From assembly GCA_900088475.1 (NCBI GenBank), contig FLMG01002136.1, forward strand, positions 1 to 64,000: 64,000 bases of DNA. Reading direction: 5' to 3'. Positions 4,236 through 64,000 of the stretch are shown one piece after another. Position 1 is the first letter of the stretch. Every line of letters starts with the position of its first letter. The notes beneath the pieces are model-generated. The model searched no databases. It worked only from the letters and a program-made list of their open reading frames with translations, and was not told the origin of the DNA. Position numbers and translations under genes: made by a program. This DNA comes from Hyphochytrium catenoides (Eukaryota; Sar; Hyphochytriomycetes; Hyphochytriales; Hyphochytriaceae).

Positions 4236-4471
4236 AAAAAGAGATAGTTCCGCCTCGTTCGTACGAGTACCTATAGAGGATTCTTAGAGCACTTTGGCTG
4301 ATTCCGGACCCGCGCCATAGTCCGGCCAGAGGGCGCCACCAACACTCCCGCCATTTTCCTCTCAGTCCTCTGCACTTTGCATGCCATCTAGACAGCTTCG
4401 ACCGTACCATCTTTAGTTTGCTAGAGAAAGATCTCAGTCTTTAATCGACAAGCTCGACGAAATCTCAAAGT

Positions 4472-5596
4472 ATGTGCTCAACAATGTGCTCGACGCCTTT
4501 GGCGGACATTCCCTCCCATCATCCGCATGATTATCAACCTCAAAGCCATTCATCATTCGAGATGAGCGAGCGTTATAGCTATGGCCGTCAAGGTAATGGG
4601 GTTCGCGCAGAGGCAGCTATGTCCTCGAGCATGCCTCTGGACTCTCAGTGCTCTCCCTGTTCGATCGGTGCCAGTGGCAGGCGGAGGAACATGAAGCTTC
4701 TTCGATATAGCAGCTCCTTCAAGAGCTTCGCGCTGCCTTCCACCAAAGCTGGACCTTTACGGCTATCCGGCTTCAACATCCTTGTCAAGCGCGACGGCGG
4801 GTTGAGCGCTTCAGGTGGATACAGCAGGAAAAGACAACGTGATGTAGGCAGTCTTCACCCTCGGCAGCCTGACATCGTTATTGGTATCAAGTCTACTCGG
4901 GGTGACCGGTGCTGGGAGGTGCGACGAACGCCGCAGCAAACCTTGAGTCTTATGATCAACCTTAGACGCTTGGTTAGCATCCCTCATGAGAACTGCAGGA
5001 CTTGTCCGTTCATGTTCTTCGTAGTACAGGACTTCCAGTACAGGCTTGGCAAGTCTTGGTTCTCCTTCAATCTTCTCTGGTGGCTAGGCTTCGCCCTTGT
5101 CTCCAAATCGATGGAGAGAGCCATAGAAACCTTTGTTCAGAATGTGGTGGATATCAGTGGGTGGAAGGCGGAAGGGTTGCGCACGGACCCGCATCATCGG
5201 CAAATTTTGGATCTCATCTCTTACTATCTAAGTGACGGCGAGGAACTCAGACACTATTTTCTGGAGAGCCTTTCTCCAACCTCCTCCTCAAACAACAGCA
5301 TAAGTCGGAACAACCTCTCAGCTGGATCATCTCCTACGGTGCGAAGTTCGCGGAGCTCGTCTCAGTCTCTGTTATCTATGAGGGACAGTGGCGTCAGCAG
5401 TTCTGGAGCCATTAGCGAGGGCTCTATGAAGCTTTGCACTCTCTGTTCTCTCCCGATGGGCAAGGATGTATCACGGCTAGACTGTGGACACCAGTTTCAC
5501 GATGAATGCATAATGGACCATCTTGAGGAGCAAACAGTGATAGAATGCCCGATCTGTGTGGAACAGGAGCTTGAGAGAAGAAGTTCCTACAGCTAG
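4472..5596 (+). CDS. RING-H2 finger protein with putative PX-like region
   Basis: Intronless frame of 374 residues starting at the first ATG after the pyrimidine-rich tract. The C-terminus carries a complete RING-H2 zinc finger: Cys322, Cys325, Cys338, His340, His343, Cys346, Cys359 and Cys362, ending in C-P-I-C. This predicts an E3 ubiquitin ligase that recruits an E2 enzyme. Residues about 90-260 hold a region with a basic Arg-Arg-Thr motif, a C-R-T-C-P segment and a helical end; it resembles divergent PX (phosphoinositide-binding) domains joined to RING fingers in some protists, but this is inference. A serine-rich linker (about 265-315) separates the two. It is one of the few genes here without introns. 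The RING call is firm; the PX call is tentative. Confidence 0.8.
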   Translation: MCSTMCSTPLADIPSHHPHDYQPQSHSSFEMSERYSYGRQGNGVRAEAAMSSSMPLDSQCSPCSIGASGRRRNMKLLRYSSSFKSFALPSTKAGPLRLSGFNILVKRDGGLSASGGYSRKRQRDVGSLHPRQPDIVIGIKSTRGDRCWEVRRTPQQTLSLMINLRRLVSIPHENCRTCPFMFFVVQDFQYRLGKSWFSFNLLWWLGFALVSKSMERAIETFVQNVVDISGWKAEGLRTDPHHRQILDLISYYLSDGEELRHYFLESLSPTSSSNNSISRNNLSAGSSPTVRSSRSSSQSLLSMRDSGVSSSGAISEGSMKLCTLCSLPMGKDVSRLDCGHQFHDECIMDHLEEQTVIECPICVEQELERRSSYS

Positions 5597-7267: not shown

Positions 7268-11258
<3,991 letters not shown>

Positions 11259-11392
11259 GAACTATAACGTCCGTTTACTTTTAATAATATCCCACCCTAG
11301 ACAGAAGAATCTCTTCAGGGAAGCCCCACACGCTTCTCTATGCACAGGGTCATATTGCTGCGTATCCTTCCTTCCTTTATTAGCAATATGCC

Positions 11393-11491
11393 CGATGAGC
11401 TCCGCCTGGGAGACCTCTTATCTGCGTTTCTCGCCCCTCATGTTGACGTTAGTTTCGCAATTCGGGCGATGAGCTCCGCCTGGGAGACCTC
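11393..11491. repeat. 25-bp direct repeat at the end of the capping enzyme-like gene
   Basis: The 25-bp sequence beginning CGATGAGCTCCGCCTGGGAG occurs identically at 11393-11417 and 11467-11491. The second copy lies inside the last coding exon of the minus-strand gene, and the first lies just beyond its stop codon. Weaker similarity continues past the identical core, so the duplicated unit may be the full 74-bp spacing. Confidence 0.9.
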
Positions 11492-14400
11492 GGAAGTTTT
11501 AGAAGAGGACGACGTTGGATAGAGGAACTGGGGCTCATCTTGGTCGTTCCCTGCTACTGGATAAGGCGCAGAGATAGGAGTAAAGACCACTCCTTCCACC
11601 TGTATCAGTGCGAGTACTTAGCACAGGGGAGAAGAGGATGGATAGGATTCCACGCTTACCGCGTGCGGCACCTTGGGAAGGAAGGAAGACAGGATCCACT
11701 CCGTTCTGGCGAGTTTGTATTGATCTCGCATTCGCACACGGAAAGGCTCTTTGCTGTAGTCATACTGTCCCTTCTCCAACAATCAACAGAGCACGCGATG
11801 GAAAACGGGAACAATGAGAGGGCGAAGAGTCAGGGCCAGCTCCGGCTGTACCAAAGCATCTGCTTGGTACCTGTTTTCTTGGACCTAGGATCTCGTTTTG
11901 CAAGATTTGAAGTCGTCGGTCAAGCCCGCTCTGCGCGATCAAGTCGCCCTATAGAGGTATGAGTCAAAGAAGCCAGAATTGGATAAAGTTTTGTTGACAA
12001 TGTGTGAGCGAGGAGGCTGTGTATAGATGTTTACCTCTAGCGCTAAAATATCCGTAACCAAAAATCTCTGCACATCTCCTCCAGGGTCGCGATCCGTGAC
12101 TAGGACGCCGTCTATCAGTGTTTTATCCACCACTTCGTCCTGTCCAAGAAGATGTTAGAAACGGAATATTTGAAGAACGATTAGCTGGGTGGGTGACGGG
12201 GGACCCAAATCGGCAACATGGGCTTGTGCTAATCACTTCCAACGTAGAGCACGAGAAGAACTTACTAGGTTCTTTCTCCGAGGAAAGTGCATTGGGGGCA
12301 GCTGAGTAATATCTAGGCTTTCATCAATCGCGTACACGTTGCCTCGGAGCAGCAACAACAACATCCTTCTTCTGTCGTACATAATGAAACCAGAATAGTT
12401 AGTTTGATAAGGTAAGAGTAACAACGGACGTCAGGTCAGTGTAGTGGATGAACCGGGACTGTCTCTTACCCTTTTGGTTTCCATGAGACAAAGTAGTTCT
12501 TTGACAGGGTGCCTAAAGTGTGTGAAGCTGCCACATGTTCCTTCGCTAGAACTGTCTCCTATTGCCGATGTGACAAGATATGAGAGCAGAAATCCCAGCT
12601 TAGGACCCGCCTTGTGAGGAATCCCCGGGCAATGAACTCACATAGGAGCCGGGGAAGCGGTCAGTAGCCGGGGCGATTTGGTGTAAGGTAGACTTTACTG
12701 TCTCATACTCAGGAGTACCGCGCTGCAGCCGTCTGCCCCAACTAAGGGGATCTATAGTGATAGAAGGAGGCAGGGAATCACGGTATATAAGTCTCCTCTT
12801 CTTGACGACTGGAATGCTGGATTGAAGAAGGCGGACGCTAGTCAGGACTTCGCTATCTCAGGAGAATATGACAAATGCTCATGGTAAACAATCAAGGCAC
12901 GCCGAACGGAGATCGAGAGAACAAGGAAGAGGAATAGATGCTAAGAGGTCGTAAATACTATTCCCTACGCTTTCTCACCTCATTGTCCTAGGAGGTGGCG
13001 GAGGCATAAGAAAGTTATCAGTTTGTGGCCTCTTCAGATTTTTTGATACATCCGGCGCCTTTATATCCCCTCCAGAAGAGAGATGAAGGAAAACACTCAG
13101 AGTTATTATGGCCACATACACGCATTGGCTGTGAGCCTCTACCTTCATTGGGGTCAGCAGCCAAAGCCGCCTTGTCCCATAATGGAGGAGTGGGGCGAGG
13201 AAGGACCCTGGAGTCTGAGGCAAAGTTTGCCTGGTACTTCTTACACAGAGCCTGGCAAACGGAAGCATCAGATAAACTACTCTTTGGAACAAATAAGAAC
13301 TTGATGGCGAACGCCTAGAAGTGGTCACGATGTCGAGGAAACAAGAAGCGTTAAGCTCACGCCATTTGAATAGAAGCAGGTTCAAGGGCTACTTTTAGAA
13401 GAGAGGAAATCTGACAGACAAGCAGACTTTAAAAGCGGGGAGGAAGGAGCCAAGCAACAGTAGGTAGTGGTAAACTAGTAACTGACCTCCAGGAATTGTC
13501 TCTCGTAGATGCCAGGTGACCTGGCCCCCTTAAACATAGAGACAGCTTTCTCCACAGGGCACCGAAAGTATTCAACAAGATAGCTGCCGGAGGAGAGACA
13601 GGAGATGAGATACAAGTGGACGAGATGTCTGACAGAAGGCTTTCCCCAGACGATTGATGACCAAGAATAGATTAGAGGTGCAACTTCCTTAAAAGTTTAA
13701 GGCATCGAAGAACCAGGACCCTTATCGTTGCAGGACTGAGAGAAACAAAAAAGAGTGGCCAAGTACTTAAAGTGCCATGAGACAAGAGGTGCCACACCTG
13801 ACGATCAGGAAGCCAGTAAGGTTAAACCCAAAGTCATCGAACACGGCTATGGCCCTATTCTTATCAGGCCCACTCCAGTGCTCCTGCACCAGCCGCAAGA
13901 AGCGCCGTACGACCTCCTCCGAGGGCACAGCTCCAGAAGAGCTCTCCGGAGAACCCTCTTCTCCGGATGGCACAAGTTTCTTGTAGACGACGTCCCACTG
14001 GTCCCAGTCACTAGTAAATAGACAAGCAGGAGGTGCATGGGTAGTAAGACATAAATTTAACCAACTGGCATTGAAAGGCAGAAACAGGGAAGTCGGATCT
14101 CGAAGACCAGATAAGTGAAGGCAAGCTGTCAGCTATAGGTTAGCCCACCTAACGTCATGATAATATCGAGAAGACATGGTCGCGTCAATAACGAGTCCGA
14201 CGTCAACAGGTGGCTGATTCTTCAACGCATACATCTTATCCAAGAACGTATCAGGGGTGAAAGATTGGCTTTCATCATAGTGTGCTTCGTATCTGAGAAT
14301 TTTGGGGACCGGCAGATTATTAGGAAAGCTTGGGCTATAATCAGCGGTAGAGGAAAGCGGAACGCAGTGCCCATAGTACCCGCCGCAATGTAACGATAAA

Positions 14401-14600
14401 ACGTGCTGGGTTACAAAGGTTGGTCTGAAGACTTACACAGTAGATAAAGGAGCCTTCATGGCGATGAACGCGTAGTTCTTGCTAACCCTGAGGACCGAGC
14501 AATCAGGACACTGCTTCCACTGCTCAAACGTATCTGGGCTCCAACTCAGCAGCTTCCTTCGCTGCTCATCAATCGGGGTGAAGGTTGCAATCTGAGACAT
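11438..14600 (-). CDS. mRNA capping enzyme homologue with degenerate active sites
   Basis: Homologue of the bifunctional metazoan/plant-type capping enzyme (RNA 5'-triphosphatase plus guanylyltransferase). Thirteen exons: 14437-14600, 14149-14292, 13798-14010, 13487-13583, 13143-13314, 12979-13069, 12642-12816, 12470-12558, 12266-12371, 12035-12139, 11871-11948, 11660-11764, 11438-11599. They total 1701 nt (566 residues), close to the family length (mouse about 597). Triphosphatase marks include W-K-Q-C-P, L-V-I-D-A-T-M-S-S-R-Y-Y and R-S-P-G-I-Y, but the P-loop reads F-D-D-F-G-F-N-L-T-G (160-169) instead of H-C-T-H-G-F-N-R-T-G. In the guanylyltransferase, motif I is K379-P-K-G-R-R (Asp lost), motif III is D427-G-V (Glu lost), motif IV V-E-G-V-V-F is kept, and motif V K-W-K-P is not seen. 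The nucleophile Lys379 remains. Start is the first true ATG. The homology is firm; loss of activity is inferred. Confidence 0.88.
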
Positions 14601-15597: not shown

Positions 15598-18030
15598 ATG
15601 GCGCTTCGAGGACGAATCCGGTCTGTCCTGACGATGGTCTGGATATGCGCCAATTCTGCCGTCATTCAAACATACCAGTTCCTTCTCTATCTACTCGTGA
15701 AGCCCATCAGTCGCACAACTTACAGAAAGTTAATGAGGTCAGAGGTTGCCTGGTGATAATCATGAAACGTCCAACGCCTAACCTTGGAACTTCAACACAG
15801 CGATTTCTTGCAGAGCGCGTGGGTGCACATGGTCAATATTGCCCTGCCCAAGACTCCTTTGCACTTCAGGTATGTGGAGCGAAGAGCGGGGAGAGAGAGA
15901 TCCTCAGCGATGTGAATGAGGAATACCCGCGCCATAATAGACGCAAATATTGGTGGCAACAATGCTTACCTGAGGCAACATTACGCAGTGGTCGACTTCC
16001 AAGTGAGACTTCTTCCGTCAAGATCTTCATATCGAACCATCAGGCAGATGCTGACTGGTGGCTCCTCTGGCAAGGTAAGCCCTGGACAGGTGAAAGGAGC
16101 CTCATATGAAGAGAAGAGGTCTTGAAGCCATCTACAATGTACGCTAATCGCTGGGCAGTTGCTATGGCCCAGGGCAAGGAAGGTTACCTTAAAATCATCC
16201 TGAAAAATAGTCTTAAGAAGGTCCCTCTCTTCGGCTGGGGAATGTACCTCTTCGAATTCCTCTTTCTGAAACGCAACTGGGTGGCAGACAAAGGCAGAAT
16301 CTATGGTAAGAGCGGCAAAACTGTCCCTAGTAGATCCCTCCCTCGGTCCGTGATCTTTTGTTCACATTCCGCTCACGAAAGCCTTACCGGTGACGTTTGT
16401 GTACCAAATTCCTCACGTGGCTTCTCGTTCTCCGTGGCTGCAGGCAAAATGCATTCTTTCGCGGAGGACAAGTACCCAGGATGGGTCGTTCTCTTCCCTG
16501 AGGGCACAACAGTCCACCAGGAGGCCCTAGATAAGGGGAATAATTTTGCTGAAAAGTAGGTGCCGTCAACGTTGCCTAGTCTACTGGGTAGCGGACACCT
16601 CTTTTGTTCTAGCCTTGCACGGCGACTTTTCACCTGGGACTTATAATCTCTCAACTATCCTTTATGTCTTTGCTTGTCATCCAGCCAAGCTGATCCTTTT
16701 ACCTTTGCAGGAACTCCCGCCCTACGTTCGAGCATCTTCTATTGCCGCGCACAACAGGCTTTACCGCTATTCTTGACGCACTAAAGGACTGTAAACCGGA
16801 GATCTACGACACCACTATGGCCTTTACGGGCTACACAGGAGAGGTGCGCTCTCTCGCATTGTTGGCAGAGCTGTTATTTGGGTCCTAGAGAACCCGTAGT
16901 GTAGAACCGCAGCGTTCAGAAAGGGCGATAGGGATCTTTAGTTGAGCGCATTTATACTGGGAGGCCATCAGGACGGGATGACAATGCTCACCTTGGTATA
17001 TCATCCCCGACGTTACAGATCCCAACATGGAACATGGGCTATGGGAGAAAGGTTGACAAGAACATTCCTTCATTAGCCAAGCTGTTTAGTGGAAAGGTAA
17101 GCAGCCTCGGAAGGAAGGAGGAACTGCACAGAAGCTGGTAGCTCAGATCACTAACACCTTCTTCACAACTGTAGAGTGAGGGCGAGTGGTATCTACATTT
17201 GGAGAAATTCACTCTAGACGAGATCGAAGATCCCGCGAAGTGGCTAGATGCAAGGTGGCAGGAAAAGGAGCGAATGCTTCGCCATTTTGCAGAGCACCAG
17301 GTGAGGAAACGCCAAATCTAGAATTGCGATAGTGTGACTCCTAAAGGCCATGATAATCACTGGGTTGAGCACTGAAGACTAGTTTTATCACGCACAATAA
17401 GGAAGTTTTCTACTAGACTTGAGGGATAGTCAGTCCATGAGCGCAAGAGTTTGTGGGTCCCTCAAAGCCTTTGCCACTAAATCAAGCATTTTTGTTTGAC
17501 TAGTCATGGCCAGAAGATAAATTCGTAGGGAAGGCAATGCCTCCAAGAATACTGGAGGTGCCGGTAAGGGCATGTCCGAGAACATCCATGCTCGCTTGCT
17601 GGGCAAGTGACTAACCTCTTTATTCTACAGTCGGGCTGGCCTAAGCTACTTAGGCTCTGGGGATTTCACATCATCAACACATTGCTCTTTCCCGTTCTTT
17701 TCCTACTCTTCTGGCCAAGTAAGTTACAAACTTCTCTCTTTCCTATGGTACTAAGTTCTGCTCCGACATATTGTAGTTCATGTCCTTCCTTGTCTGTTAA
17801 TGGGAATATGCGGCGTTTCGTCCTCGTGGGTCCTTCTTTCCTGAAAACCGGTCTCTACCCCGATCCTGGCTAACACTGCACTTGAAGCTTTCATTTGCGT
17901 CCTTATCTTCGCCTTCGTGGACCGAGTGCTAACGAAGGTAGACATCACCAACGGTGCCTGGCCTTACCTGAAGGGGCTAGTCAGTGGGAGAATGCAGTGG
18001 TGGCCGCGGGAAGAAGACGAGGAAGAATAG
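15598..18030 (+). CDS. 1-acyl-glycerophospholipid acyltransferase (AGPAT3/4/5-LCLAT1 type)
   Basis: Membrane enzyme that moves an acyl chain from acyl-CoA to a lysophospholipid in phospholipid synthesis or remodelling, expected at the ER. Exons: 15598-15737, 15801-15869, 15989-16074, 16159-16305, 16444-16555, 16711-16843, 17019-17096, 17175-17300, 17504-17563, 17631-17718, 17888-18030; phases agree throughout. The PlsC family motifs are complete: N-H-Q-A-D-A-D-W (NHX4D), P-L-F-G-W-G-M-Y, L-F-P-E-G-T, and L-P-R-T-T-G-F. The long W-rich C-terminal part with L-D-A-R-W-Q-E-K-E and two late hydrophobic segments fits the AGPAT3/4/5-LCLAT1 subgroup rather than short bacterial-type PlsC enzymes. The last acceptor (17887) is the least certain boundary. 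The acyl acceptor cannot be told from sequence. Confidence 0.88.
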
Positions 18031-26700: not shown

Positions 26701-28375
26701 CTGGCACAATTGGAAGACGAACTGACACGACTGGGTCTATTGGATAGAGGTAGCGCTGAGCATGAAGAAGGGCTGATTCGAAGCCAATGCTGGGAGATTG
26801 GGCTGCACGCTTTCAAGGCAGCTGAACAGGCGTTGCATGTGAGGGGCCTTCTCGTCAAATAACTGTTGCCTCGGTACTTATAGCCGTCATGATATCCTTT
26901 ACTGTCCCTTGAGTGGGAAATCTCCATCCTTGTTTTCATTCCGCTCCAAAACTGTCGGCTGTCCTTACCTGCGAAGTTCAGGGTGCTTCGGCCTCCTTCT
27001 AAAACTACGTCATTGCTACTGCAGGCCGCAGAAGGCTCCAAGGAACAATGGCCCAACTTTTCAGCATCTCTGGTATGGAGAATTTGTCACGCGGTCTCGA
27101 TTACGCCTCTCATACGGGGTCAAGACTAATCCTATACCTAACCGCAACCTACCTTCCTGGCCTCTTCTTGATAACGTTGTCCCAGGCTTCTATTGGAAGG
27201 GGAATGGATAGTTTAAGAACATATATCACTTCTAGTCTTCACTTTGAGGCTACAATGTCAGAAGAAGTAAGTGCGCACCTCGAGATGAACATCTTTGTAG
27301 CTTAGAGAACACCATTCAATACCGAGATTATTTCGTTCTTTCCGCAACGAGGACCTCTTCCTCGCACGAAGACACCTGTTTCTCTCTTATTCTGGGCCTC
27401 GGTTCTACAACTCTGAGCGCTNNNNNNNNNNNNNNNNNNNNNNNNNNNNNNNNNNNNNNNNNNNNNNNTCACCTTTTACGTTGGAGCTCCTTAGCTGTTT
27501 CCTTTATCAGCCGGGACAGTGGCTGGTTCTGTGCCTGTCGGCTATCGCCAAACTTTTCCCAAAACAGAAGAGAAAAGAGAAAAAGAAAGGTGCCCTGCCG
27601 AACGAAGATCCTATTCTGGTACGTCGCAGCTAGACCTCAGCACACAGTTCTGTTCTACGTTTGTGGCAGATTAGAAACCTCTGTACTTGCACTCTTAGTA
27701 GTCTCCCGAGCTGCTCGCATAAGTTCACTCATGCAATCTCTTTGTACCCTGTTGTTCCGTCTTGGGTGCCTCAACATGGGTCCGCTGGGCCCTTGTCGAA
27801 CTCAACGTACAGACGGCTATGGGTGAATTTCGCGACTCAGTAGGGAGGCTCATTCAGTCCCTGTCGGAGGTGCAAAAAACCTTGGAGAAGGAGACAGAAC
27901 ATGCCAGCAAAATTACGGACACTTTAGGAGGCTATGCTTCGGAAGAAGCCCTATTGGAGAAGTTCGCCAGTGAAGTAAGAAGACATCTTTTACTCTTTGA
28001 TGGTTGTTACTGGCTTTCTTAGAGTTACGTTCGAGGACCATCTGCCTTGTGGCTGAAGCAGCCTGCTTACAGATTGTGTTGGTACTGTACTCCTAGGAAG
28101 TGGTATTTATCTTCCATTGCTACCATTCGTTGGAAACGAGCTCTACTTCTCCCGCCGTTCATCTCTTAAGCTTATCTCCAAGAGCTATCACTCTTTCAAC
28201 CTCCCACTATCGCATACCCTTGCCTGTCCTTAACTCGGTTTTGATGGCACCACAGGAAAGTCGTGGATTCCGGCACACTGTCTTCGGTCACGTGAGAGAA
28301 GGACAGCATACATCCTTGCAGCGGTGTCACAGCCTTTTAACTGACAAGCTGAACCTTCTCAAAGCTTTACGGTAG
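20752..28375 (+). CDS. NatB N-terminal acetyltransferase auxiliary subunit (NAA25/Mdm20-like)
   Basis: Non-catalytic TPR-like subunit that anchors NAA20 to ribosomes for acetylation of nascent Met-Asp/Glu/Asn starts. The N-terminus V-R-P-I-Y-D-A-I-D-S, then V-L-K-A-H-C-L-E-R-T-G and P-T-D-E-A-V-I-S-T-L, matches the family opening. Phase-consistent early exons: 20752-20871, 20970-21041, 21119-21233, 21338-21359, 21578-21701, 21928-22010, 22191-22233, 22300-22372, 22452-22519. Later ones include 22700-22811 (D-A-D-D-W-S-F-Y), 23020-23191 (R-G-P-F-L-A-H-I-E-L) and 23231-23362 (F-G-D-K-Q-C-C-F). Many more run to a final exon ending in L-N-L-L-K-A-L-R and TAG at 28375. The segments around 22520-22700 and 23500-27750 were not fully resolved, and a 47-N gap lies inside. 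No catalytic domain is expected or seen. Confidence 0.82.
27422..27468. other. Assembly gap (47 N)
   Basis: A run of undetermined bases within the 3' half of the NatB-subunit gene. Part of an exon may be missing here. Confidence 0.99.
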
Positions 28376-28706: not shown

Positions 28707-31700
28707 TTACAGGTTAACGTTCACCTTGGCCGTCCAGAAAGGAATGCCGTGGCTCTTTGCCTCCTCCGACAACAAATTGCCCGACCAGTCGCCTCCATCG
28801 GCTTCAACAAGCCAAGGCCTGATGCTAACGTCTAAGTACCCATCATCCCAGGTGTATGCCAAGATTTTCACATCGTTGGCGCCTGCCTTCAGTGGGGCAC
28901 AGACGACAAAATCGCGTTGGGGACCGTCCCCATTTCCATAGTATCGCGCCATCAAGATGCCGTTGATCCAGACAAAGGCTGTTGGAGAGCCACGGAGCCT
29001 AAGCCGTAGGGGTAATTCAATCTCGGAAGTTTCTGGAAGAGAAAAAGAGGAGCGGAACCACTGAAGTCCATGGCAGCGGCTAACTGGTAGTTCATCAGCA
29101 ACTGGGTCCAAGAGAGTCCATCCCTGGTTTGAGTCTTCATCAGGGAGCCCGGAGGAGCAGTACGCATTCGGCAGTTGTCTGACGTCTACACCGGCCACCC
29201 ACCACGAAGCGTTGCCTATCTTGGCAATAGAATTTGACCTACAAACATTATAATATAAGTCAGACCCAGGTCAACCAGCTTGATGAGCTTTGGCCATTAC
29301 TACCAGTCCCAGCTATCTCAACACTATACATGTTTCTCGGACTTTAAAGTTGGCCAGGGGCTTGTTTAAAACAGAAGCAGCGAAAGTAGTCTTTTTGCTT
29401 GCCCCCCTTCGTTTTACTCTTTTCTCCCGCTTGAGTATCTCGCACTTGCTTACCTCAGTGAGGCCTTCAGTAGCCCACGAGGACTTCGGGCATCATCAAG
29501 GATGAAGACTTGGCGATTCAATCCGAAGTTCTCCGCCAATATGAGTATCTGCTGAGCGGCCACTGTAGAAGTAATAGATGTTCCATACTTAATGTAGGGA
29601 GAGATATCATACCTATGAGGGTAGAAGAGGCCAACGATGGATCTGTCAGTAACGTAGAAGGTATGACGGGGGATTGATGCAGTCAAATCCTCAAAAGTCC
29701 ATGGAGCCCAAGAGCGAGCACTTACTCTTGTGAGCCCAAGAAGCTTACGTCAGGGCCCATCTTTCCTCCCGGCCTTAATAGTTGGTGCGAATAGGTCAAG
29801 TGACCCCCAACTATCTGACCATTGACGATAACGGTGGCCCGATGTCTCGCATTGATCCTCAGGATAAGTGACTTGGGTTCGAGTTTCTCCCAAAACTGTG
29901 CCTGAGAAGACTGCAGGACCAGATCGCACTTATATATAATATGTCCGGAGGTAAAGCAGAGATCAAGCGCTGTCTCTTTGGGAGAGAAGTTCATAACTTT
30001 TGGAGAAATAGAGAGGGAGGAGGCCAATGGGACAAAGCGATATTCTGACCAATTTGGCTGCCGGACTTCCCACTTACTGAACTCCGCTCTCATGCTTTCA
30101 TCTTTCAAATGCAGTACCGGAGGAGATCTTTTCGGCAGATGCTGGTGATGGACAAGAGCGGCAGGAAAGGTGTCCGATGACGCCATCCAGGTTTCAGGAT
30201 CGTAATGGACAAGATGAGCTGCTGAAAGAAGAAAGACGTCCCTCTCATCTTCCCTATAATCCACTTGTACACTTTCAGGGCTCAGCCAGAGAGCGGCGTA
30301 AGGACCCCAAGAAAGTGAAAAGTGCTCATCGTCCACGTGTGCCTCAGGACTGGCAACAGCCGACAGTGTATAGAGTTGAGATTTGTCCAGAGCCAAGATA
30401 TACAGGTTTCCTGCTGAAGGCGAAGAAATGACAGCCCAACCAGTAGAGCGGGCAAAGGAGACGATAGTGGCTCCAGCTTCTTCCTTCTTCTCCACTTTAG
30501 CCAAGAGGTTCCCTGCCACAGCGATTGCAGGGTCTAGGAAGACCATGCTGCCCAATATCTCATCATCACTCTGAACCACCCAAAGTTCTCTTTCTCTTTC
30601 CATTCCATTGACCTCCTTCACTCGAAGCATGGTCCTTACGTGAATGGGAGTTGATGAGAAGAGAAGCTTCGGTCCTGATACAGGCTTGTAGTTACCTAAA
30701 GCTATAAAAGCTTGTTTATAAGGTAGGTGGGCGGGAATCTCCAGCTCTACACGTTCTGCCTTTCTGTCGTCGCTGGGAAGCTTTACTCGTAGGGTGAAGT
30801 TTGTCTTCCTCTGAACGTTAAAGTTTCTGAGAAAAACGAAGCGGGCTCCTGTCACCGATTGTCTCTGGCGATTGACCACACCTTCATCATTGCACAGCAC
30901 ATCTTGAGACTGACTGAGATCTGTCCTCGATAAATGCTCTGAGAAGGAGCGGGCGAACAAAGCACCCAGCCGAAGTTTCCGCAATCTACCGGAAACAAAG
31001 CCGTATTCCCTGAGGCAGGCACTGTAGTCGTAGGAAGTATACACATCCGGATCACCTGAAGAAGGCAAGGATGGGGAAGGGTCAGCTAGGAGGTAAGAAA
31101 TCTAAGGCAGGCAAGTTCTTCCATATATCACCGCCTCAACTGGCGCTTGATGGGCCATGGCCTTGGCCTTGGCCTTCATCAAAACCGTTTTCTATGTGCT
31201 TTCGGCGTTTCTATCTGCATTTGGTCATCCTCTCTTATCACCCAGCCTTGGTGACATCCGTTTGCCGCCCGTTTTACCTAGGGTGCCCCAGTTAGTCCCT
31301 CCAAAGAACATATAATAGTTCATGACAGTGCAGCCTTGCGCGACGACGGTATCAAAGATAGTGCGTGTATAGTTCTCCCCATAAAATCTGTAGATGTGAT
31401 CGTATGTGTGCTGCAATTTATAGTGGTTGAACCAACCACCCTGCAATTCCGCGATGAAGATAGGAGTCTGAAGGCGCAAAATGAAGAAGCGTTATGAGAA
31501 GGAAAGGGATCAAGAGAGATGGTATCGTCAGAAGCCAGATTTTAAGGCCCATCAGAACGAAAGCCCTAAGGGCTCTGCTTTACCTCTGCGGCGGAGAATC
31601 CAAACCCTCGGACAGTCTGCTCCATTCCATCTAAGGACTGCACGACATCCTTCGTGTCCCAATCGCCCCAGTCTTCATATTTCAGTTTTTTGGGCTTCTT

Positions 31701-33534
31701 GAACTGACTGGAGGGGGCAGAGGCAGGCACAAACACAACGTACTTGTCGAATCCAAAGAGATCCAGCCCAAAGACTTTCTTTCCCCAGACGGTGGCGTCA
31801 TCTTTCTTAACCAACCACGAACCGCCTTCAAAAGCGTCGTTGGTAAAGAAGGGAACCTAGAAGGAAGATAAGCCCAAGACAACCGGTCCGTTATCATCCC
31901 AATGCAGAAGGACTATCGAGATATGAGGCAGAGAACATAGCTCTACAGCAATTAGACAAGTTACTGCGGCATCTACCAAGAGAGATAAGTTGACTGTATT
32001 GTGTAGAGGCTGGGATACAGGAGATTGGGTTCGGAAGCAGAATGCACAGGACTGTACAATATTGTAGCGTATAGAATGATGGGCGGGGTCTAGGGGTCGT
32101 ACCGTCATCATGAGGTCTCTTGCAGACTTGGCCAATACTCTCATATCATCGTGAATCCCCACTGTCAATGGTCCCAAGCGCTCAAACATCTCGTTTTCAA
32201 TCTGCATCCCGATCACGCAACCTGCAGCGGTCAATACAGAGTCCTTAGTGGTTCCAGCACGGAACGGAATACACCCTTGATTATCTTTGTCTTCCTCAAC
32301 ATAGGGTCGACCCTTCTGCTGTGTGTTTCCTCCTTCCCTCCAAGCGTACTCATAAATCGTTACTTCATGCTATGAACCTTCATGGTGCTCACCATCATTG
32401 TTCTCCGTGATCTGGTGTCTTCGCAGGATGGGCAAGAGGTGGCTAAACCACTCTTCACAGTAAAGAGCATACTTGGAGTCAAATCGTCTCAAAAAGTGTG
32501 TCACTGCATGGCGGATCCGCACGTCTCTCTGGGCAACTACCCAGACTGGGATACCGCCGGCTTGCGTTTCAGCACAGATGTAGGGGCCTTTTATAGGGAG
32601 CAAAGCAAAAGTGAATAAGAAGAGACTAATGAGCGCGCACAAGCAAGGATCATTTCGAGGACGACCGGGCTGACGAAGAGATGTAACAAGATAACTGCTA
32701 GAGGAATGCAAGTCTCCGATAAAATGAACACATTCGCCTGCAGCACCTCACCTGGAGCAGCAAGGACGTAGAGTCCGATCTCCTCGCATAAAGAGAGGAG
32801 GTACTCTACATCGCGGTTGCCATCAAAGTGGTAAACTCCTTGAGCTGTTTCAAGAGGATGTTAGACCAGAGAGATTGGTACTAATCATTAAAAGATTTGG
32901 CTAGGGAAGATGTGGGAAGAACCGGCGCAGAAAGAAGCTGTGAAAGTAGATTTATGGAACACAAGTAGTTCCTATGTTCGCGTAAGGAATGAAAAAGAGA
33001 ACAGCACAAGGCTAGAAGAATAGGAAAGATAACGGCACAGAGTTGTCTCAAAAGCAAAGCCGGTGGAGACTTGGACCAAAGCAGGCCAAATGTCACGCAG
33101 CAACCGCATTTTTCTCCTCCAAGCAAAGTGCTGCAAAGTATATCGCATTCTGTAGGCGAGAACCCGATGGTCTTACCTGGTGAATGAAAGCCCCAGTGGA
33201 AATAGATGCGTATGCAGTTAAGTCCGGCCGACGCGTACTTGCGAAGGATAGGCTCCCACTGATCCCTGTCAGGCACCCGCCAATAGTGGAACTCTCCGCT
33301 AACGATTATCTTGGGCTTGCCATGGATGTAGAGGCAATGCTTGTCCCACTTGATAATATGCCCATACTTCTCCATGTCATAGCGGCAGGAGGACGTTGTA
33401 ATGTCGGTTCGGGTACCGAAATGTGGAAGATAGCAGTAGTAATAGTAGAGCCCTGCGAGTGCAGCAGCGCTTAGCAGAAGACCCAACAAGGCATAGCCGA
33501 GCAGCGATAGAAGCTGGAAGACGAGGTCCATCAT
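28707..33534 (-). CDS. GH35 beta-galactosidase, N-terminal membrane anchor
   Basis: Glycoside hydrolase family 35 enzyme that removes terminal beta-galactose. Nine exons: 33177-33534, 32752-32844, 32393-32587, 32103-32221, 31584-31856, 31278-31467, 29726-31055, 29454-29642, 28707-29238. They sum to 3279 nt (1092 residues). The N-terminus has a hydrophobic segment (about residues 5-32), which predicts a type II membrane protein with its catalytic part in the lumen or outside. Family signs are G-E-F-H-Y-W-R, Y-F-H-W-G-F-H-S-P, E-T-Q-A-G-G-I-P-V-W, the acid/base Glu226 in Q-I-E-N-E, nucleophile Glu353 in A-E-L-Q-G-G-W-F-N, and F-F-G-G-T-N-W-G. The long C-terminal part (G-L-F-Y-P-H-R-Y-D-I, W-F-R-S-S-F-S-L) fits the jelly-roll domains of large GH35 enzymes. 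Substrate cannot be told. Confidence 0.92.
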
Positions 33535-33740
33535 TCTGGTTTCGACTGTGGCCCGATGATGGCGCTCCAGAGGGCCAACGATAACCTGAAGTCAGAGTTA
33601 TCTTCGACAACGTCTTCGCGCGGGCCAGTTACGCGCAGGTAGTCCTGGATGGAGTCTGTAGCCTCTCCCAGGCACCAGGTATTGGGAAGTGGGCGATCAG
33701 AGTTGCGACCATTGTGACGCAGAAGTGGTTGCATGACCAT
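33531..33740 (-). other. Upstream ORF overlapping the beta-galactosidase start
   Basis: A 69-residue frame starting at ATG 33740 ends in a TGA (33531-33533) that overlaps the start codon of the beta-galactosidase (33532-33534) in another frame. Its composition (D-S-I-Q-D-Y-L-R-V-T-G, S-L-A-L-W-S-A-I-I-G) is protein-like. It may be a regulatory uORF that affects initiation, or part of an upstream exon spliced differently. No known family was recognised. Confidence 0.4.
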
Positions 33741-37950: not shown

Positions 37951-40900
37951 ATGGCTCGCAGAATCGCGGTTCAAGTCCATGACACCGAGGTGGTTCTCCT
38001 TATCCTGGTGGGCTATCGATGTCACTCTTGTATTCTCTCTTCGTCCTGACCAAAGCATCCTGCCATCAGAAGTACCTAAAGAGCCGTGGCCATCATGAGG
38101 CAATGCGGAGTCTTGAAAAAGAGACACGGATGACTGTAGAAGACTATGAGAATGAGACGATAGAGTTCTATCGGGATCTCGTATTGGATGGCAAGTGGGA
38201 TACTCTCATTTCCGAGCTGGAGCCCCTTCGTGGTGCCGGTAATGCCTATGATGAGGTGAGGACGTGGCTCTCCAGCTGCAAGGCTCCTTGTTCTGAAAGC
38301 ACCTTCGGCAGGTCCTCTATCAAATCAGAAGACAGATGTACCTGGAGCAGCTCAACCTTCACTGCAAAGTAAGCGCACGAAGCGATGTACTTCTCGTCCA
38401 GGGCAGAACTCATCTCCTTATGTAGGGAGAATCGCTGGATGAGGTAGAGCTTATGCAAGCTCTGGAGATCTTAAGACTATGTGTAAAGGATGAAAGGGAA
38501 TTCCATCGCCTTTGCTATCTTATGAGCCTCTCGCAGCTGCAAAAGGACCCGGATTATGCGCATTGGAGCCCACTTTCGGGCCGGGTGCAGTGCTTTGAAG
38601 CTCTGAAGCCGCATCTGCAGCAGGTACAAGGCTACTCGATACCAAGAGTCAAACCAAAAGCTGCGAACACCTGCGGCTCATTCATTTGTTCAGGCTCTGG
38701 GCTTTGTAGGAAATGCACCGAGGCCAACCATCCCAGCAGAGCAGTTATGCAGTCTGCTGTCGATCGCCATCCAAGAGAAGGTACTTGACGTTCTCATGTC
38801 CTGCCCACCTAAATAGACTCTCGCCTACTACGATCCAGAGCTTCAGTGCCTTCTATCTCTTGCATCCCAGTCCTCAGCTTCTAGTAACCTCAAATTTCTA
38901 ATAACGCCATCCTCCTTCATGGTCTGTCCTTCAGCTGCAGCGTTTTGAGATCACAAAGAGCTTGTCACAAGAGTCATCTCTCGAGATATCCATTCTCTCC
39001 GATAACCTGGTTGGATATATTATCCAGGAAGATGAGCGGACTCCACTCATGCTTAGAGCTGAATCTGTAAGTAGAGCCTTTTCGTAGATTGGTGCTGCCT
39101 TTCAATGTCCCTAATCTTTTCGTCCATCAACCCTTTCCCTGATTGTCACACCCTGATACGTTCTCTTGAGGCTATTAGCCTTAATGTCTCACGTTCTCTT
39201 GAGGATATTAGCCTTAATGTCTCACAAATTTCTTCATCCTTGCCTTACCTCACCCTGGGTGACTAGGTTCGACCGAAGAACGAAAATTTATGGGTCGACC
39301 TCTCCATCATACCACTGCCTTCAGACTTTAAAGTGAGGCCATAATCTTGCCCAAAGGACCTTCTCCTCTTCCTTCGCCAAAAGAATCATTCTTTCCCTAT
39401 CACATAAATTTCTGCTAACGTTTCCCTGCGATGTCTTGTTCCTTATGGTCAGGGCCATAGAGTTTCTTCCTCAACAGTACTTACACCTAGTCAAGAGAGT
39501 TTGAAGGATCCAGGCGTAGGAGGAAGGGGTCCCCAGGACGACAATGGCTTCAGACCTCTATGTTCGGCAGATGGACAATATAATGAGGGTGGAGAAGGAA
39601 GTGCGAAGCAAGAATCAGCCACATATGGTGCTATACTTCCACGAAGTACCACAAGTGAAATGGGGCAAGAGATACAGACTACCCATGAGCAGGAGACAAC
39701 GAAAGAGTTCAGCAGTGCTTCAGCTTCAGCTGCGCCAATCTTCCCAGTTTCTTCCTTCGGAGATCTTTCTGTTTCCCAACGAAATGAGGAAGACCAGAAC
39801 AACCAAAAGGAAGGAGGCAATGGGTTCGAGGAAAGGGAAAGAGTACCGATACGGAAGAGAATCCAACCAAAGCCTCCACCAGAGACAGCGCTTCACTCGA
39901 ATCAGAGAGCTACGCAGCTAATTAATCAGGGTTCCGGCACTACTAGAAAGAAGGATCACCCAGTGGCTGCTGTCCAACCTCCTTCTAACGAAGACGAGAT
40001 GAAGATTTCTACAACAGATCACGCCATACCAAAAGCCGGGGGTAGAAAGGGCCTTGCAGATGGGAGCTTAAACTTCAAGGATTCTGGTTCTGAAAGGATC
40101 CCATCCGTGCAACCGTTGGCCTCGGGTGAGCACTCGTTCAGAAATATGTTAGCCTCAATTGCCAGCGTCTCGTGGGTCCACTGTATTTCATCCTTTCTAA
40201 CCACAATCTTTCCCATGTCACAGCGGACCAAACTTCTGGAGTTTACCCGTTACTCCAGAAGAGTAGCTCCCCAAAAGTGGCATGGCAGTCGCAGTACACT
40301 CCTGACGGCGGGGACACTTCTTTAAGCAGCATGCCCGCCAGGTCACTAAACCAGGCAGTGAGCAAAGAGACGCGGAGCCCTTTCCTTCAACCTGACTCAG
40401 TGAGGGTGAAGGGGACAGGCACCCATATTAAGGCGTTCTCCGGCAATAGGGAACCCCAACGCATAGCGGAGGATCTCCAGCTTACGTCCGCACGTACAGA
40501 GGGAATAGACCTGATTGAACCTAAAGAAACAGAGGAAGACCCAGCAATGCATTCGGAAACATCTTCCCCAACAGGTAGAAATCCGGCTTCTTTTCTGCAA
40601 TACGAGCACCTACATGCCAAGCATTTTCAAGAGTATCTTCCTGTGGCCCAGGATACCGAAGATCAGGTACAAGATATGAATAAGATGCCCCCAATAAGGG
40701 AAATATGTAGAATACCCTCTTTAAGGGGACTGCTTTTCGTTCGCTGTTTGACCTAACCCTTACCTCTCAATTTACCTCTAACATGCTCTTCTCCTAGCCT
40801 ATTCGAGCTGTAGCGTTTGATCCCGCTGGTAAATGGCTGGCTGTTGGAACGAACGCAAAGTCTCTTCGAATCTGCTCTGTTAGTGAGACTTTCCCTCAGA

Positions 40901-42715
40901 GTGAAAAAGGCGCCAGCAAGTCCTCAGCTTTTCTAAGCAGGGAAACATTGGGTCCTGGATTTCTCTCTCCTCTTCCTATCGGCTATGAACGCCCAAACCA
41001 TCACCTTGGGTCGGTCTATTGCGTGGCGTGGAACTCCGATTCCAGCTTACTTGCGACGGGTAAGGAGTTAGTGAAGACTCACATACGCGAGTGCGGATAT
41101 CCCATGTGCACCCCTCAGCCGCCCATCCTATCTGCGAGTCCGCCGTCTTTTTTTGTACCTGATGGGTCCTGGATAGCCTTGAAGAAATGTGTCGGGTTCT
41201 CAGTTGAACTCTCTTTGTCTCTATCCCTTGTCTCGCTTCGTACAGGCTCAAATGATAAATCTATAAAGGTTATCCGGTTAGTGCATGGGATGTCTTCCTT
41301 CTTAAAGGTGCCAACAGTGTCGTCAGAAGAAGGTCTAGATGTCAAACTGCAAGGACATAATGGAACCGTCCGCTGTCTATCATTCTCACCTAGGGGAAGT
41401 GATCCTGTACTTTTCTCAGGAGGANNNNNNNNNNNNNNNNNNNNNNNNNNNNNNNNNNNNNNNNNNNNNNNNNNNNNNNNNNNNNTTACCATCAGCAAGT
41501 TAGGAGATGCCACTTATACGTCAGATGGTCTACAGTGCCTGCAGCTCTCGAAGCAACAGCCCCAAATATACTAAGGTTCTGTTGTTGTCCTTGTGTTTCC
41601 AGGAGACAATGCGTGCCGTGTCTGGGATCTCTCGCGGACAGCTCAAGTCCCGACTCTTACTCTCCGCGGCCACTCTGACGTGGTCTACGATTTGTGTGCA
41701 CTGGAAAGTGGCCAGCAGGTGAGAGGTCTTTGCATTGTACACTTGAGCATGTCGGAGGGTTGACCCTTCATTTCGCAGTCAGTTGGTCTTCAGTCGCATC
41801 CTGTACTTCTTTTCTTACAGCCGAAATATCTGCCTGTACCTTACTCCTTTGTATCACCGAAGCAGAGATTTTTATAGACTATTCGAAGTCGTTTCCGGCG
41901 TCTGTCTTACCATAATGTGACTCCCTTCCCTTGTTAAATGGGTAGGTGATCTCTGGAGGCGGGGACAAGACTTTGCGCCTTTGGGATGTACGAAGTGGCT
42001 GCTGCGAGCGCATTCTCTACGGAAGCAGCAGCACAATCCAAGCTGTGGCCGTCTCTAGGACGAATCGTAGGTGTATCTAAGCATATTCTGAGCAACATAC
42101 TTCTCAGGCACTGGTGTTCCTTCTGATTTATGATCTGCCCACATCACTCCCCACAACCTTCTGTCTCATTTGATAGTCTTTCACCATTGGTCTAATGCAA
42201 TCTCCGCATCCATCTCAGAGTCTATTGTCGCCACTGGTCATGCCGATAACTCCTTCAAACTATGGGACATCACACAAGGCCGAATGCTGTTTGAGCTGGG
42301 CCCGCATTCCGATGAGTGCAGGTCTGTCGACTTTTCGCCTGACGGAAAGTGGCTACTTTCAGGTAAAAAGGGTTGTCAGTCCGTCTTCTTTTGTCCTCGT
42401 ACGTTGTAGCTCCTTAATATTTCAGCCTTCCATAGCTTATCTGGCAGTTCGGCCTGCAACTCTTCCGCCCAACGATAAGTGAGCGTCTGCCGATTGAGTC
42501 AATCTAACTTCGTCTACCTAGGGTCTTTTGATGGCTGTGCGATCGTGTCTTCTGTGTACTCCTCTTTGCCGCCTCAGGAGCGAATCGTCGCCACCTACAA
42601 AGGACATAGTGATAAGTTGCTGCAAGCAAAATGGCATCCCTTGCTCCCTGTTTTTGTTACAACCAGTGCCGACAAAACAGTCAAGCTTTGGATGCGAAAG
42701 ACTCTGGCGCCGTAA
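37951..42715 (+). CDS. WDR47/nemitin-like LisH-CTLH-WD40 protein
   Basis: In animals WDR47 is a microtubule-associated adaptor. Early exons: 37951-38007, 38070-38255, 38312-38368, 38426-38623, then about 38694-38779 and one beginning near 38937. A LisH motif (T-E-V-V-L-L-I-L then K-Y-L-K-S-R-G) and a CTLH region (Y-R-D-L-V-L-D-G-K-W-D; F-H-R-L-C-Y-L-M-S-L-S) open the protein. A long disordered Gln/Ser/Pro-rich linker (about 39490-40700) ends in a helical patch (A-K-H-F-Q-E-Y-L). Seven WD40-type blades follow from about 40800, with A-F-D-P-A-G-K-W-L-A-V-G, V-Y-C-V-A-W-N-S-D, V-I-S-G-G-G-D-K-T-L-R-L-W-D, I-V-A-T-G-H-A-D-N-S-F-K-L-W-D and T-T-S-A-D-K-T-V-K-L-W. Stop TAA is at 42713-42715. Order and spacing match WDR47 rather than LIS1 or katanin p80. 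A 61-N gap interrupts one blade. Confidence 0.82.
39158..39223. repeat. 33-bp tandem duplication in an intron
   Basis: Two adjacent 33-bp copies (39158-39190 and 39191-39223) beginning ACGTTCTCTTGAGG differ at one position. They lie in an intron of the WDR47-like gene, so they are probably neutral slippage. Confidence 0.9.
41425..41485. other. Assembly gap (61 N)
   Basis: Undetermined bases inside a WD40 blade exon of the WDR47-like gene, just after F-S-G-G. Reading resumes with D-N-A-C-R-V-W-D about 120 bases further on, after a probable intron. Part of a coding exon is missing from the sequence. Confidence 0.99.
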
Positions 42716-61413: not shown

Positions 61414-64000
61414 ATGAACATCAGTCATACCCTTGCTAGCCAAGTGCCAAGGGACGAGTCGACTCAGAAGACAGGGAAGACAGGAAGCCGTAGCTCTAGG
61501 CGATTGTTTCATTCCTCTTCCCGTCTAGAAAAACGCGACTACTATAGCGTACTAGGTGTGGGGCGCAATGCAGACGCATCAGAGATCAAGAAGAAGTACT
61601 TCGAACTGGCAAAAAAGCTCCACCCAGATACGAATAAGGACGACCCGGATGCAGCCAAAAAGTTTGGAGAGTTATCCGAGGCTTATGAGGTAACACAAGT
61701 ATAGGTCGGGCAGAGAGAGAGGGAAGATGCGTTATTAGGTGAGGGAAGTGGGATCGATGGTGCCGTTTTGGCTCTCTGTTTCACAGGGCAGAATTCTTAT
61801 CAGTCATGGCAGACGACAGAGAAGAGTCAACAACGCAGTCCCCTCGTCAGCGATTTCCTACTTTGTGGCTAACCAGTGAGCAATCTTAGGTTCTGGGGAA
61901 TAAAGAGAAGAGAGAGATGTATGATACCTATGGCCATGCTGGAGTCGATCCCAACTTTGCAGGAGGGGAAGGAGGTTCGACTATTGTTCTTATTCTGCCT
62001 TTGAAACTTCTTTTGTATATCGATCCGTTCGTCTATTGTCCTTGGCTTGCTTCGCGTCTCCTTGGACTCCCTCAGCACCTCTACTAACGAGGCCAAACTC
62101 TGTGACTCTACGCCCAAGCAGCCTTACTTCTTCCTGCTGGTCTATTTTGGGAAGCAGTACTCCTCTCTCGCTTAATCATNNNNNNNNNNNNNNGGGTGTC
62201 GCCCGAAGATATTTTTGAAGAATTTGCTGGCATGTTTGGCGGGGGCGGAGGTACTAGAAGACGCCGTCAGGGCCCACAGAGAGGCTCCGACGTACAGACC
62301 AGGTCCGTCCCATAACAGTTGGATGTGCCTGGAATGTGGGCCGGCGAGCGGAGGAGGAAAAAGGGAGAAAGTGGGGATCCGGAGAGACTTCGATTAGGCC
62401 AGACATCAGCGAAGGAATAGGCTGCAGAAGTTGATATTGGGACATGGAGTTAACCCTTGTACCGAGATAAGAGGAGGGACAAAACGGCTTAACGGGTTGT
62501 ACGTATGAGGTGAAGCAGAAAGCTTTGGAATGCGAAGTTTCAATGGTAGTGCTAAAAGAACTTTTCTTGGGCGGGGCGTAAGTTCAGTAGCCCAGCAAAG
62601 AGTGGACACTGTTGCAGAAACCATTTTGATCAGGGAATTTTTTATGAGGTTAAGTGCTGACGGTCCAGGACTTATTCTCTCACAATCTTGCCTGCAGTGT
62701 GCGCCTAACATTCATGGAGGCTGTGAAAGGGACTGTAAAGACTCTCAACTTGATGGGGAACGTGCCTTGTGACACATGTGATGGTAGCGGGGCCAAGCCA
62801 GGAACTAAGCCAACAACGTGCTCAAGATGTAAAGGGAGCGGCCAGGTATGTGATGATGATTCCATTGAATGTGTCCATTTCGTCATTCGGGGCCGCTCAT
62901 CAGATACGTTCGGCTTACCTCTTTTCTAGGAAATCCTGCAACAAGGTTTCTTCCAGATCGCACAAACTTGTCGAAAGTGTGGCGGGCTCGGATCCATCAT
63001 TGAGAACCCATGCGGCACCTGCAGAGGACAAGGAACAGTTAAAAAGTCAAGAAACGTGGAGGTTACTATTCCAGCAGGCAAGGCCGTCAGTCCTTAGACT
63101 CACTTCACGCTCTACTTACCTTCTGTCTTCGTACAGCTGCGTAGCTTACTTTTCAATCTGAGTTACCCTTTTTCTACTCATTTAAGCCGTCTTACGGGCC
63201 TGATTTACCTAGTTTTTCATAGGTCTCTTTCTTTGACAAGACCGGGTTTGAAATGTGCTAATATTTCTAGTTCCCTTCCAGGCGTTGATACCGGAGTCAA
63301 TCTCCGACTTGCAGGCCAGGGTGAACCGGGAACCAAGGGAGGTCCCGCGGGCCATCTCTATGTGGAGATAAAGGTAGAGACGGCAGTAAAGGATGGCGAC
63401 GGGCAGTGGGTTCATCACGCTAGTACCACCACTAAAATTGTTTTGACAAGCCGATGGTCAAAGGGGTGATAATGATACCTTTTTTCTAACGCAGGTCAGG
63501 GAGGATCCTTTCTTCCATCGCATTGGAGATGACGTGCACGTGGAGGTGCCCATCTCAATAGCCGCAGCTATTTTAGGAGACGTCGTGAACATTCCGACGT
63601 TGACTGGAGAAGCAGAGCTAAAGGTAGGGACGCTCTCACGCAAGAAGTCTAGTTTCTATTATCATGTTCCTACCATTCAACATATAGTCGTCCCGTCGTT
63701 CATCGACATAAGGTATCTTACCTATGGCTCACACCTTGCAATCTTCAATCCCTGCTCTATAGGTCCCGGCAGGTACTCAGCCTGACCAGCAGCTCATTAT
63801 GCGAGGGAAGGGTATCAAGCGGCTAAGTGGACCCGGCATGGGAAATCAATACGTGCACTTCAAGGTCCAGATCCCTAAGAAGCTTACTACGCGCCAGAAA
63901 GAGCTCATGGAAGAATTCCGGGAAGAGGAAAACAAACGAAGCGACAAGGATGATGTCTTCCATGCCTTCGGTAAGCCCACCATGTTTTGTCTCTTTCCAG
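61414..64000 (+). CDS. Mitochondrial type-I DnaJ co-chaperone (partial)
   Basis: Hsp70 co-chaperone of the Mdj1/DNAJA3 kind, cut by the window end. The start at 61414 is the first ATG after an in-frame stop. The N-terminus is basic and Ser-rich and ends [11 protein letters not shown], as in mitochondrial presequences. The J domain follows ([11 protein letters not shown] motif in K-K-L-H-P-D-T-N) in 61414-61689 and the next exon from about 61890. A Gly-rich linker (M-F-G-G-G-G-G) is near 62230. All four zinc repeats are present: [32 protein letters not shown]. The substrate-binding C-terminal domains ([22 protein letters not shown]) run to the window edge. A 14-N gap lies in or beside the linker exon. 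Confidence 0.9.
62180..62193. other. Assembly gap (14 N)
   Basis: Undetermined bases directly before the exon encoding [10 protein letters not shown] of the DnaJ gene. The acceptor site of that exon may be hidden here. Confidence 0.99.

Follow-up and report, generated by a model that had tools for sequence, protein, structure and literature searches.

A candidate pseudoenzyme of the animal/plant-type mRNA capping enzyme family in the Hyphochytrium catenoides assembly

Introduction

Capping enzymes are seen as catalysts that cells cannot do without, and the triphosphatase type they use has served as a marker for deep eukaryote evolution. Why, then, should a genome hold an intact gene for a capping enzyme whose two active sites are both degenerate? 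This question is raised by a minus-strand gene at 11438..14600 in a 64,000-nucleotide stretch of Hyphochytrium catenoides DNA (the window; GenBank assembly GCA_900088475.1, contig FLMG01002136.1, positions 1 to 64,000), which an earlier note had interpreted as a retained capping enzyme paralogue without catalytic residues. Our analysis of this capping-like gene and of the assembly (42.5 Mb, 1105 contigs; the gene lies on C188) suggests, with moderate confidence, that its product is a pseudoenzyme, a homologue of the animal/plant-type two-domain capping enzyme that has lost catalysis but has been kept for binding related to RNA polymerase II (Pol II). Another contig, C197, appears to encode a complete enzyme of the other capping class.

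Results

Homology and structure of the gene

The predicted protein of 594 residues resembled capping enzymes in both of its domains. The Pfam scan at E<=1 gave three matches in all. The mRNA capping enzyme catalytic domain (PF01331) matched residues 397-560 (E 2.9e-31), and a DSPc match at residues 166-218 was weak and under the cut-off (E 0.0075). At the same threshold there was no match to the tunnel triphosphatase PF02940, which is present in C197 instead, or to the OB fold PF03919, and the snurportin family was not among the three matches. In the search of solved structures, the top nine of the 15 sequences listed were capping enzymes, with chains of the human enzyme first (E 3.9e-36). The human match fell into two separate stretches, residues 62-222 (triphosphatase domain) and 360-554 (guanylyltransferase, GTase, domain), with 55/147 and 58/190 aligned residues identical, respectively. 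A PTP-type domain is thus followed by a GTase domain in one chain, which bears out the triphosphatase-guanylyltransferase layout recognized earlier. By its sequence, the gene is a member of the animal/plant-type capping-enzyme lineage.

Re-splicing gave the following gene model, in which all features are on the minus strand.

11438..14600, whole gene, ATG at 14600 to stop at 11438, 13 exons, 594 residues
14437..14600, exon 1
14149..14334, exon 2, contains GLVIDATMSSRYYHD (also based on the alignment to human structures)
13798..14010, exon 3, bears the degenerate phosphatase loop
13815..13841, degenerate PTP loop F174-D-D-F-G-F-N-L181-T (coordinates counted by hand)
13487..13583, exon 4, ends FKGARSPGIYERQFLE (also based on the alignment to human structures)
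13143..13314, exon 5, end of the PTP domain and linker
12979..13069, exon 6, linker
12642..12852, exon 7, linker and start of the nucleotidyltransferase domain
12470..12558, exon 8, motif I reads K405-P-K-G, with its lysine retained and its aspartate replaced by lysine
12266..12371, exon 9, FPRRKNL, in which the phosphate contacts human R330 and K331 are kept
12035..12139, exon 10, motif III reads D453-G-V455, without its glutamate; also motif IIIa and R468, equivalent to human R358
11871..11948, exon 11
11660..11770, exon 12, R517, equivalent to human R411, kept
11438..11599, exon 13, motif IV as VEGVVF, motif V remnant FLYP (about 11516-11527, by eye), stop

The 12 introns, of 60-214 bases, are all GT..AG, and the joined exons form 594 codons without a stop, so that neither the broken frame nor the broken splice sites of a pseudogene were found. 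The coordinates, strand, exon number and open frame given in the earlier note were therefore upheld, while its length of 566 residues and its numbering of 161, 167 and 379 were 14 to 28 off, and the last three become Asp175, Leu181 and Lys405.

Loss of both active sites

Residues were mapped from the alignment to the human enzyme, of which residue 449 is the last one aligned. In the triphosphatase loop, human H125-C126-T-H-G-F-N-R132-T has become F174-D175-D-F-G-F-N-L181-T, and HCX5R(S/T) is absent. The catalytic Cys and Arg characteristic of the PTP-type RNA 5'-phosphatases (PIR1/DUSP11, baculovirus phosphatase) are both lost. In the GTase domain, six residues are kept (K294 as K405, G297 as G408, R299 as R410, D343 as D453, G344 as G454, and D363 as D473) and five are changed (D296 to K407, R315 to E425, E345 to V455, Y362 to T472, and E436 to A541). 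Motif I reads KPKGRR in place of KxDGxR, with K, G and R kept and D lost, and motif III reads DGV in place of DGE. Past human residue 449, the stretch VAGNDQDEPQFLYP stands against VGTDRNYLKWKWADL in C197 (placed by eye; the C197 alignment stops within the stretch), and motif V has decayed to FLYP where LKWK is expected (judged by eye, past the last residue of the C197 alignment). The protein terminates 25 residues beyond VAGNDQDEPQFLYP, and motif VI and the whole OB fold are missing. The segments near the dead loops, GFN-TGFLI, AR-PGIY and VSWK, are well kept.

The human alignment confirmed the substitutions reported before (Cys to Asp, Arg to Leu, K-P-K-G in motif I, and D-G-V in motif III, with the lysine kept), and it added the loss of His125 (Phe174), Arg315 (Glu425), Glu436 (Ala541), motif VI and the whole OB fold. 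Motif V, which had been called absent, is indeed lost as a catalytic motif, but its decayed remnant persists in place. In the Trichomonas enzyme, H125S, C126S and mutation of a motif VI arginine are described as each abolishing the respective activity (PMC2904801), and all three positions are lost here. Human K460, D468, R528, R530, D532 and K533 are also described as important for substrate binding and catalysis (PMC8034621). Given the residues lost, it is not plausible that the 594-residue protein carries out either capping step.

Inspection of the exons showed that the lost residues lie inside them, so an alternative splice choice would not restore them; intron 8 splits the codon of the motif I glycine. 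The OB fold, in turn, cannot have been overlooked downstream, because a convergent gene ends 179 bases away, stop to stop.

8048..11258 (start approximate), plus strand, convergent protein kinase gene, with Pkinase matches at 8048-8494 and 10334-10798; last exon and stop read

We take this kinase to be SRPK-like. A 38-base direct repeat (87%) is found at window positions 11380-11417 and 11454-11491, one copy in the last exon of the capping-like gene and the other just past its stop. Local duplication may have remodelled the C-terminus of the protein.

Codon structure and neutral simulations

Each exon was scored with codon frequencies trained on the exon of the Pol II subunit Rpb1. The predicted frame scored highest in all 13 exons, three of them barely above zero, and the mean was 0.165 bits per codon vs 0.279 for the C197 gene. 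The synonymous codon usage correlated with that of Rpb1 (Spearman) at 0.59 for the capping-like gene, 0.46 for C197, and 0.30 for introns. Neutral simulations (n = 400) were each run until 6 of 12 catalytic-class codons, a set of our own choice, had changed. None of the 400 was free of stops, the median being 13 and the minimum 2. That the frame is still open despite this many losses speaks against neutral decay, as an argument rather than a measurement of selection.

Other capping genes in the assembly

The search for a second capping enzyme in the genome, proposed in the earlier note, found a complete one, and it is of the other class. The C197 gene (15795-10931, minus strand) was spliced by hand into 16 exons coding for 698 residues, with matches to PF02940 (E 1.7e-16), PF01331 (E 2.6e-16) and PF03919 (E 8.7e-8). 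Its motifs KTDG, DGE, TDGIIF, LKWKWADLITIDFK and RFKMVRPDKTDGN are all present. The closest solved structures, 1p16 (Candida), 4pz6 and 3kyh (the last two presumably yeast proteins), are stand-alone GTase subunits and rank ahead of the human enzyme. C197 is therefore predicted to encode a complete capping enzyme with a tunnel-type (TTM) triphosphatase, GTase and OB fold in one chain. To our knowledge, fusion of a TTM-type triphosphatase to a guanylyltransferase is unusual outside viruses. In the nucleotidyltransferase part, C197 and the 594-residue protein are 25% identical (60/240). With this identity and the different class, the capping-like gene is not a recent paralogue of C197. The earlier proposal of a retained non-catalytic paralogue thus holds in that the gene is intact, spliced and non-catalytic in both domains, but not as regards a recent paralogy with C197.

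A PTP domain with an intact active-site loop, HCHYGYNR, was found on C37 (minus strand, about 13650-12830). It matches the triphosphatase domain of capping enzymes (E 6e-22) better than the PIR1 phosphatase (E 2e-8), and 26 of 86 residues are identical to the 594-residue protein. An SmD3-like gene, recognized by eye, lies downstream, and no GTase exon was seen on C37, so the phosphatase is apparently stand-alone. Besides C188, it is the only gene found in the genome that resembles the animal/plant-type capping enzyme. A PTP query of the assembly matched C37 and, weakly, two other contigs, C63 (E 0.03) and C577 (E 0.10). The PF01331 scan of the assembly at E<=10 pointed to three places, C197, C188 and C87. 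C87 was rejected as a further GTase, as its reading frames carry no GTase motif. The human GTase query matched nothing in the assembly and missed even the known C197 and C188 genes, which makes it no evidence of absence. Since such exon-wise searches are insensitive, a further capping gene is possible. Within the matches obtained, C188 appears to be the only animal/plant-type two-domain capping enzyme detected, and a complete GTase was detected only in the other class.

Origin of the contigs

The search for cox1 found two copies coding for the same protein, on C402 and C1105. The Rpb1-type search gave nine matches on four contigs, which by eye are Pol II (C439), two other eukaryotic subunits (C799 and C778), and a giant-virus-like sequence (C64). 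The identical cox1 proteins and this Rpb1-type set are consistent with a single eukaryote. No match was found in a search for PsaA/PsaB in the readable parts of the assembly. The base composition of C188 and C37 agrees with that of the polymerase contigs. In contrast, C197 was a compositional outlier, with tetranucleotide distances to the window of 0.214-0.275 over four pieces (one of 2.4 kb and three of 4.9 kb). Pieces of 4.9 kb from within the window gave <=0.18, and the further eukaryotic contigs in the comparison <=0.185. When purine/pyrimidine runs were masked, the 3-kb piece of C197 at 11000-14000, which holds the GTase half, lay at 0.212; pieces of the window itself reached 0.217 and those of C778 0.23. 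The remaining three C197 pieces, including the one with the triphosphatase half, lay at 0.247, 0.303 and 0.311. The divergence of C197 thus comes partly from purine/pyrimidine repeats. No 18-base words were common to C188 and the other contigs compared. C197 probably belongs to the same organism as C188.

Three of these contigs have further features. On C439, Rpb1 (144000-149808) runs open for 1440 codons, whereas the genes around it are rich in introns. A long intron-free Rpb1-like frame at C64 167376-169097 resembles those of nucleocytoplasmic giant viruses by eye, and C64 would be a viral contig or carry an insertion. C1105 is mitochondrial, with adjoining cox2, cox1 and atp1 and several ribosomal-protein genes (by eye), and much of its first 21 kb is N.

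Discussion

In the capping-like protein the catalytic residues are lost while the fold residues and the reading frame are kept, which is the sequence pattern of a pseudoenzyme. As the gene is intact with both active sites dead, and another contig encodes a complete capping enzyme, it has probably been retained for a function other than catalysis. The protein may have been retained because its surfaces still bind a partner in transcription-coupled capping, most likely Pol II, through the phosphorylated C-terminal domain (CTD) or the stalk/RNA-exit region, or an associate of Pol II, and it would act as a scaffold or competitor rather than as an enzyme. The human contacts with CTD phosphates are described as R330/K331/R386 and R358/K403/R411 (CDS1 and CDS2), with R392 joining in one replicate (PMC8034621). 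Four of these six are kept here (R330, K331, R358 and R411), R386 and K403 are lost, and the side contact R392 is kept. As aligned, the C197 enzyme is without the FPxRK segment. Simulations of the human enzyme suggest that salt bridges of E436 with R358 and R411 compete with the CTD phosphoserine (PMC8034621). With Ala541 in place of E436 and both arginines kept, CTD binding would be uncoupled from the active site. The retention of CTD contacts is a lead, not proof.

Several observations weigh against a retained Pol II-binding protein. The kept CTD contacts (4/6, or 5/7 with R392) are not above the background of 12/26 human Lys/Arg kept in the same domain (binomial P 0.17 for 5/7). RNGTT is described as anchoring on the Pol II stalk through its OB fold (PMC11139899), which is missing here. 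C439 ends where the CTD repeats of Rpb1 would begin, so the CTD is unreadable, and the heptad-family search for it gave no match. No orthologue was found in the protein database with the 594-residue protein or with a two-row alignment including the human capping-enzyme stretches as queries (8000 candidates scored per search, none with E<=0.001). As the human stretches were also unmatched, this database seems poor in eukaryotic capping enzymes, and the negative says little. IMG/VR and the bacterial and archaeal genomes, which may lack entries close to the genome of the window, gave no relative either. Finally, C197 being a compositional outlier, its origin in the same organism is likely rather than proven.

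The GTase-like domain of CMTR1 is inactive. It is nevertheless described as anchoring CMTR1 on the Pol II stalk (PMC11139899). Similarly, the trypanosome proteins RESC1-RESC2 have triphosphatase folds without activity; RESC2 binds RNA with a 5'-triphosphate (PMC10201420), and the two have been termed RNA triphosphatase pseudoenzymes (PMC12936278). Both cases are precedents for docking or RNA binding by inactive capping-type folds, and by analogy the present protein might do likewise. CMTR1 shares a GTase-type domain with it but carries a methyltransferase domain, whereas the partner domain here is a dead PTP; RESC1/RESC2 share the retention of inactive capping-type triphosphatase folds, but theirs are TTM folds acting in mitochondrial editing. 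Compared with human RNGTT and Trichomonas TvCE, the order of PTP-type triphosphatase and guanylyltransferase is the same, but both active sites are destroyed, and the C-terminus ends at motif V, without motif VI or the OB fold. The TTM-type enzymes (yeast Cet1/Ceg1 and C197) have a homologous nucleotidyltransferase fold, whereas here a PTP-type domain takes the place of the tunnel triphosphatase.

STYX-type dual-specificity pseudophosphatases have the catalytic Cys replaced, keep the fold, and play scaffolding roles; in contrast to these, Cys, His and Arg are all replaced here, and a dead GTase is fused. Snurportin 1 has a GTase-like fold that binds the cap without catalysis and without an OB fold, but it has no PTP domain, unlike the capping-enzyme layout found here. 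The cap-binding domain of snurportin is documented (PMC5396385).

Such a fold leads to another explanation, in which the nucleotidyltransferase domain reads the 5'-end of RNA or the cap without catalysis, like the cap-binding domain of snurportin or RESC2. The strongly basic motif I (K405-P-K407-G-R409-R410), which could hold RNA, and the absence of the OB fold are in keeping with this, as is the binding of triphosphate RNA by the inactive RESC2 fold (PMC10201420). However, the PTP loop is acidic (F-D-D-F) and without its arginine, and would not be expected to hold a triphosphate. A triphosphate-RNA reader in the PTP domain is unlikely, and we consider a role as reader rather unlikely overall. 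The gene could also be decaying, with catalysis lost recently and the frame still unbroken. The lack of an orthologue in the collections searched and the 38-base repeat flanking the stop codon on both sides would fit, but at least six separate catalytic changes have accumulated without a stop, frameshift or broken splice site, which no neutral run achieved free of stops; with codon structure kept in 13/13 exons and well-kept motifs beside the dead loops, decay is unlikely.

There are two further explanations. The protein might bind to and regulate one of the other capping proteins as a subunit, either the C197 enzyme or the C37 phosphatase, the three genes forming one apparatus, and the occurrence in the same assembly of an intact, apparently stand-alone phosphatase and a complete TTM-GTase is compatible with this. 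No sign of contact was found in the sequence, though, and the single C197 chain already unites both activities, which makes such a regulator quite unlikely. The earlier note had also offered an enzyme with a new chemistry; in our numbering, its nucleophile would be Lys405. The equivalents of K294, G297, R299, D343, G344 and D363 are kept, but the protein lacks the motif III Glu, E436, the motif V lysines and motif VI, no known route of metal or pyrophosphate binding is left, and this option is highly improbable.

A retained, non-catalytic binding protein therefore remains the explanation that we prefer. More tentatively, and doubtful as a whole, the lineage may have kept both eukaryotic capping systems. 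A tunnel-type triphosphatase-guanylyltransferase and a stand-alone PTP-type phosphatase would both be functional, and the animal/plant-type two-domain enzyme would have been demoted to a non-catalytic reader of CTD or RNA, by which the functional enzyme is recruited or gated. For single capping domains, inactive relatives (RESC1/2 and the CMTR1 GTase-like domain) are already known. What appears to be new here is a capping-family pseudoenzyme with both domains dead, in an assembly that also has a complete system of the other type; no inactive two-domain capping enzyme was described in the openly licensed papers searched. A model of capping evolution, as described in PMC2904801, predicts a 'transitional state organism' with both types of triphosphatase. 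If true, a lineage with two systems would be a living trace of this organism. A genome with both types, in which the two-domain protein is intact but its active sites are dead, makes it testable which roles capping enzymes have beyond catalysis (CTD, Spt5, or RNA binding) and whether the eukaryote ancestor carried both systems, with later losses.

Elsewhere in the window, the following features were recognized.

4445-5593, plus strand, RING-finger protein
16110-16556, plus strand, acyltransferase (PF01553)
27422-27468, 41425-41485 and 62180-62193, short N stretches
28710-33591, minus strand, beta-galactosidase of glycosyl hydrolase family 35, with PF01301 and BetaGal domains in two scanned frames
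40798-41571, plus strand, WD40 protein

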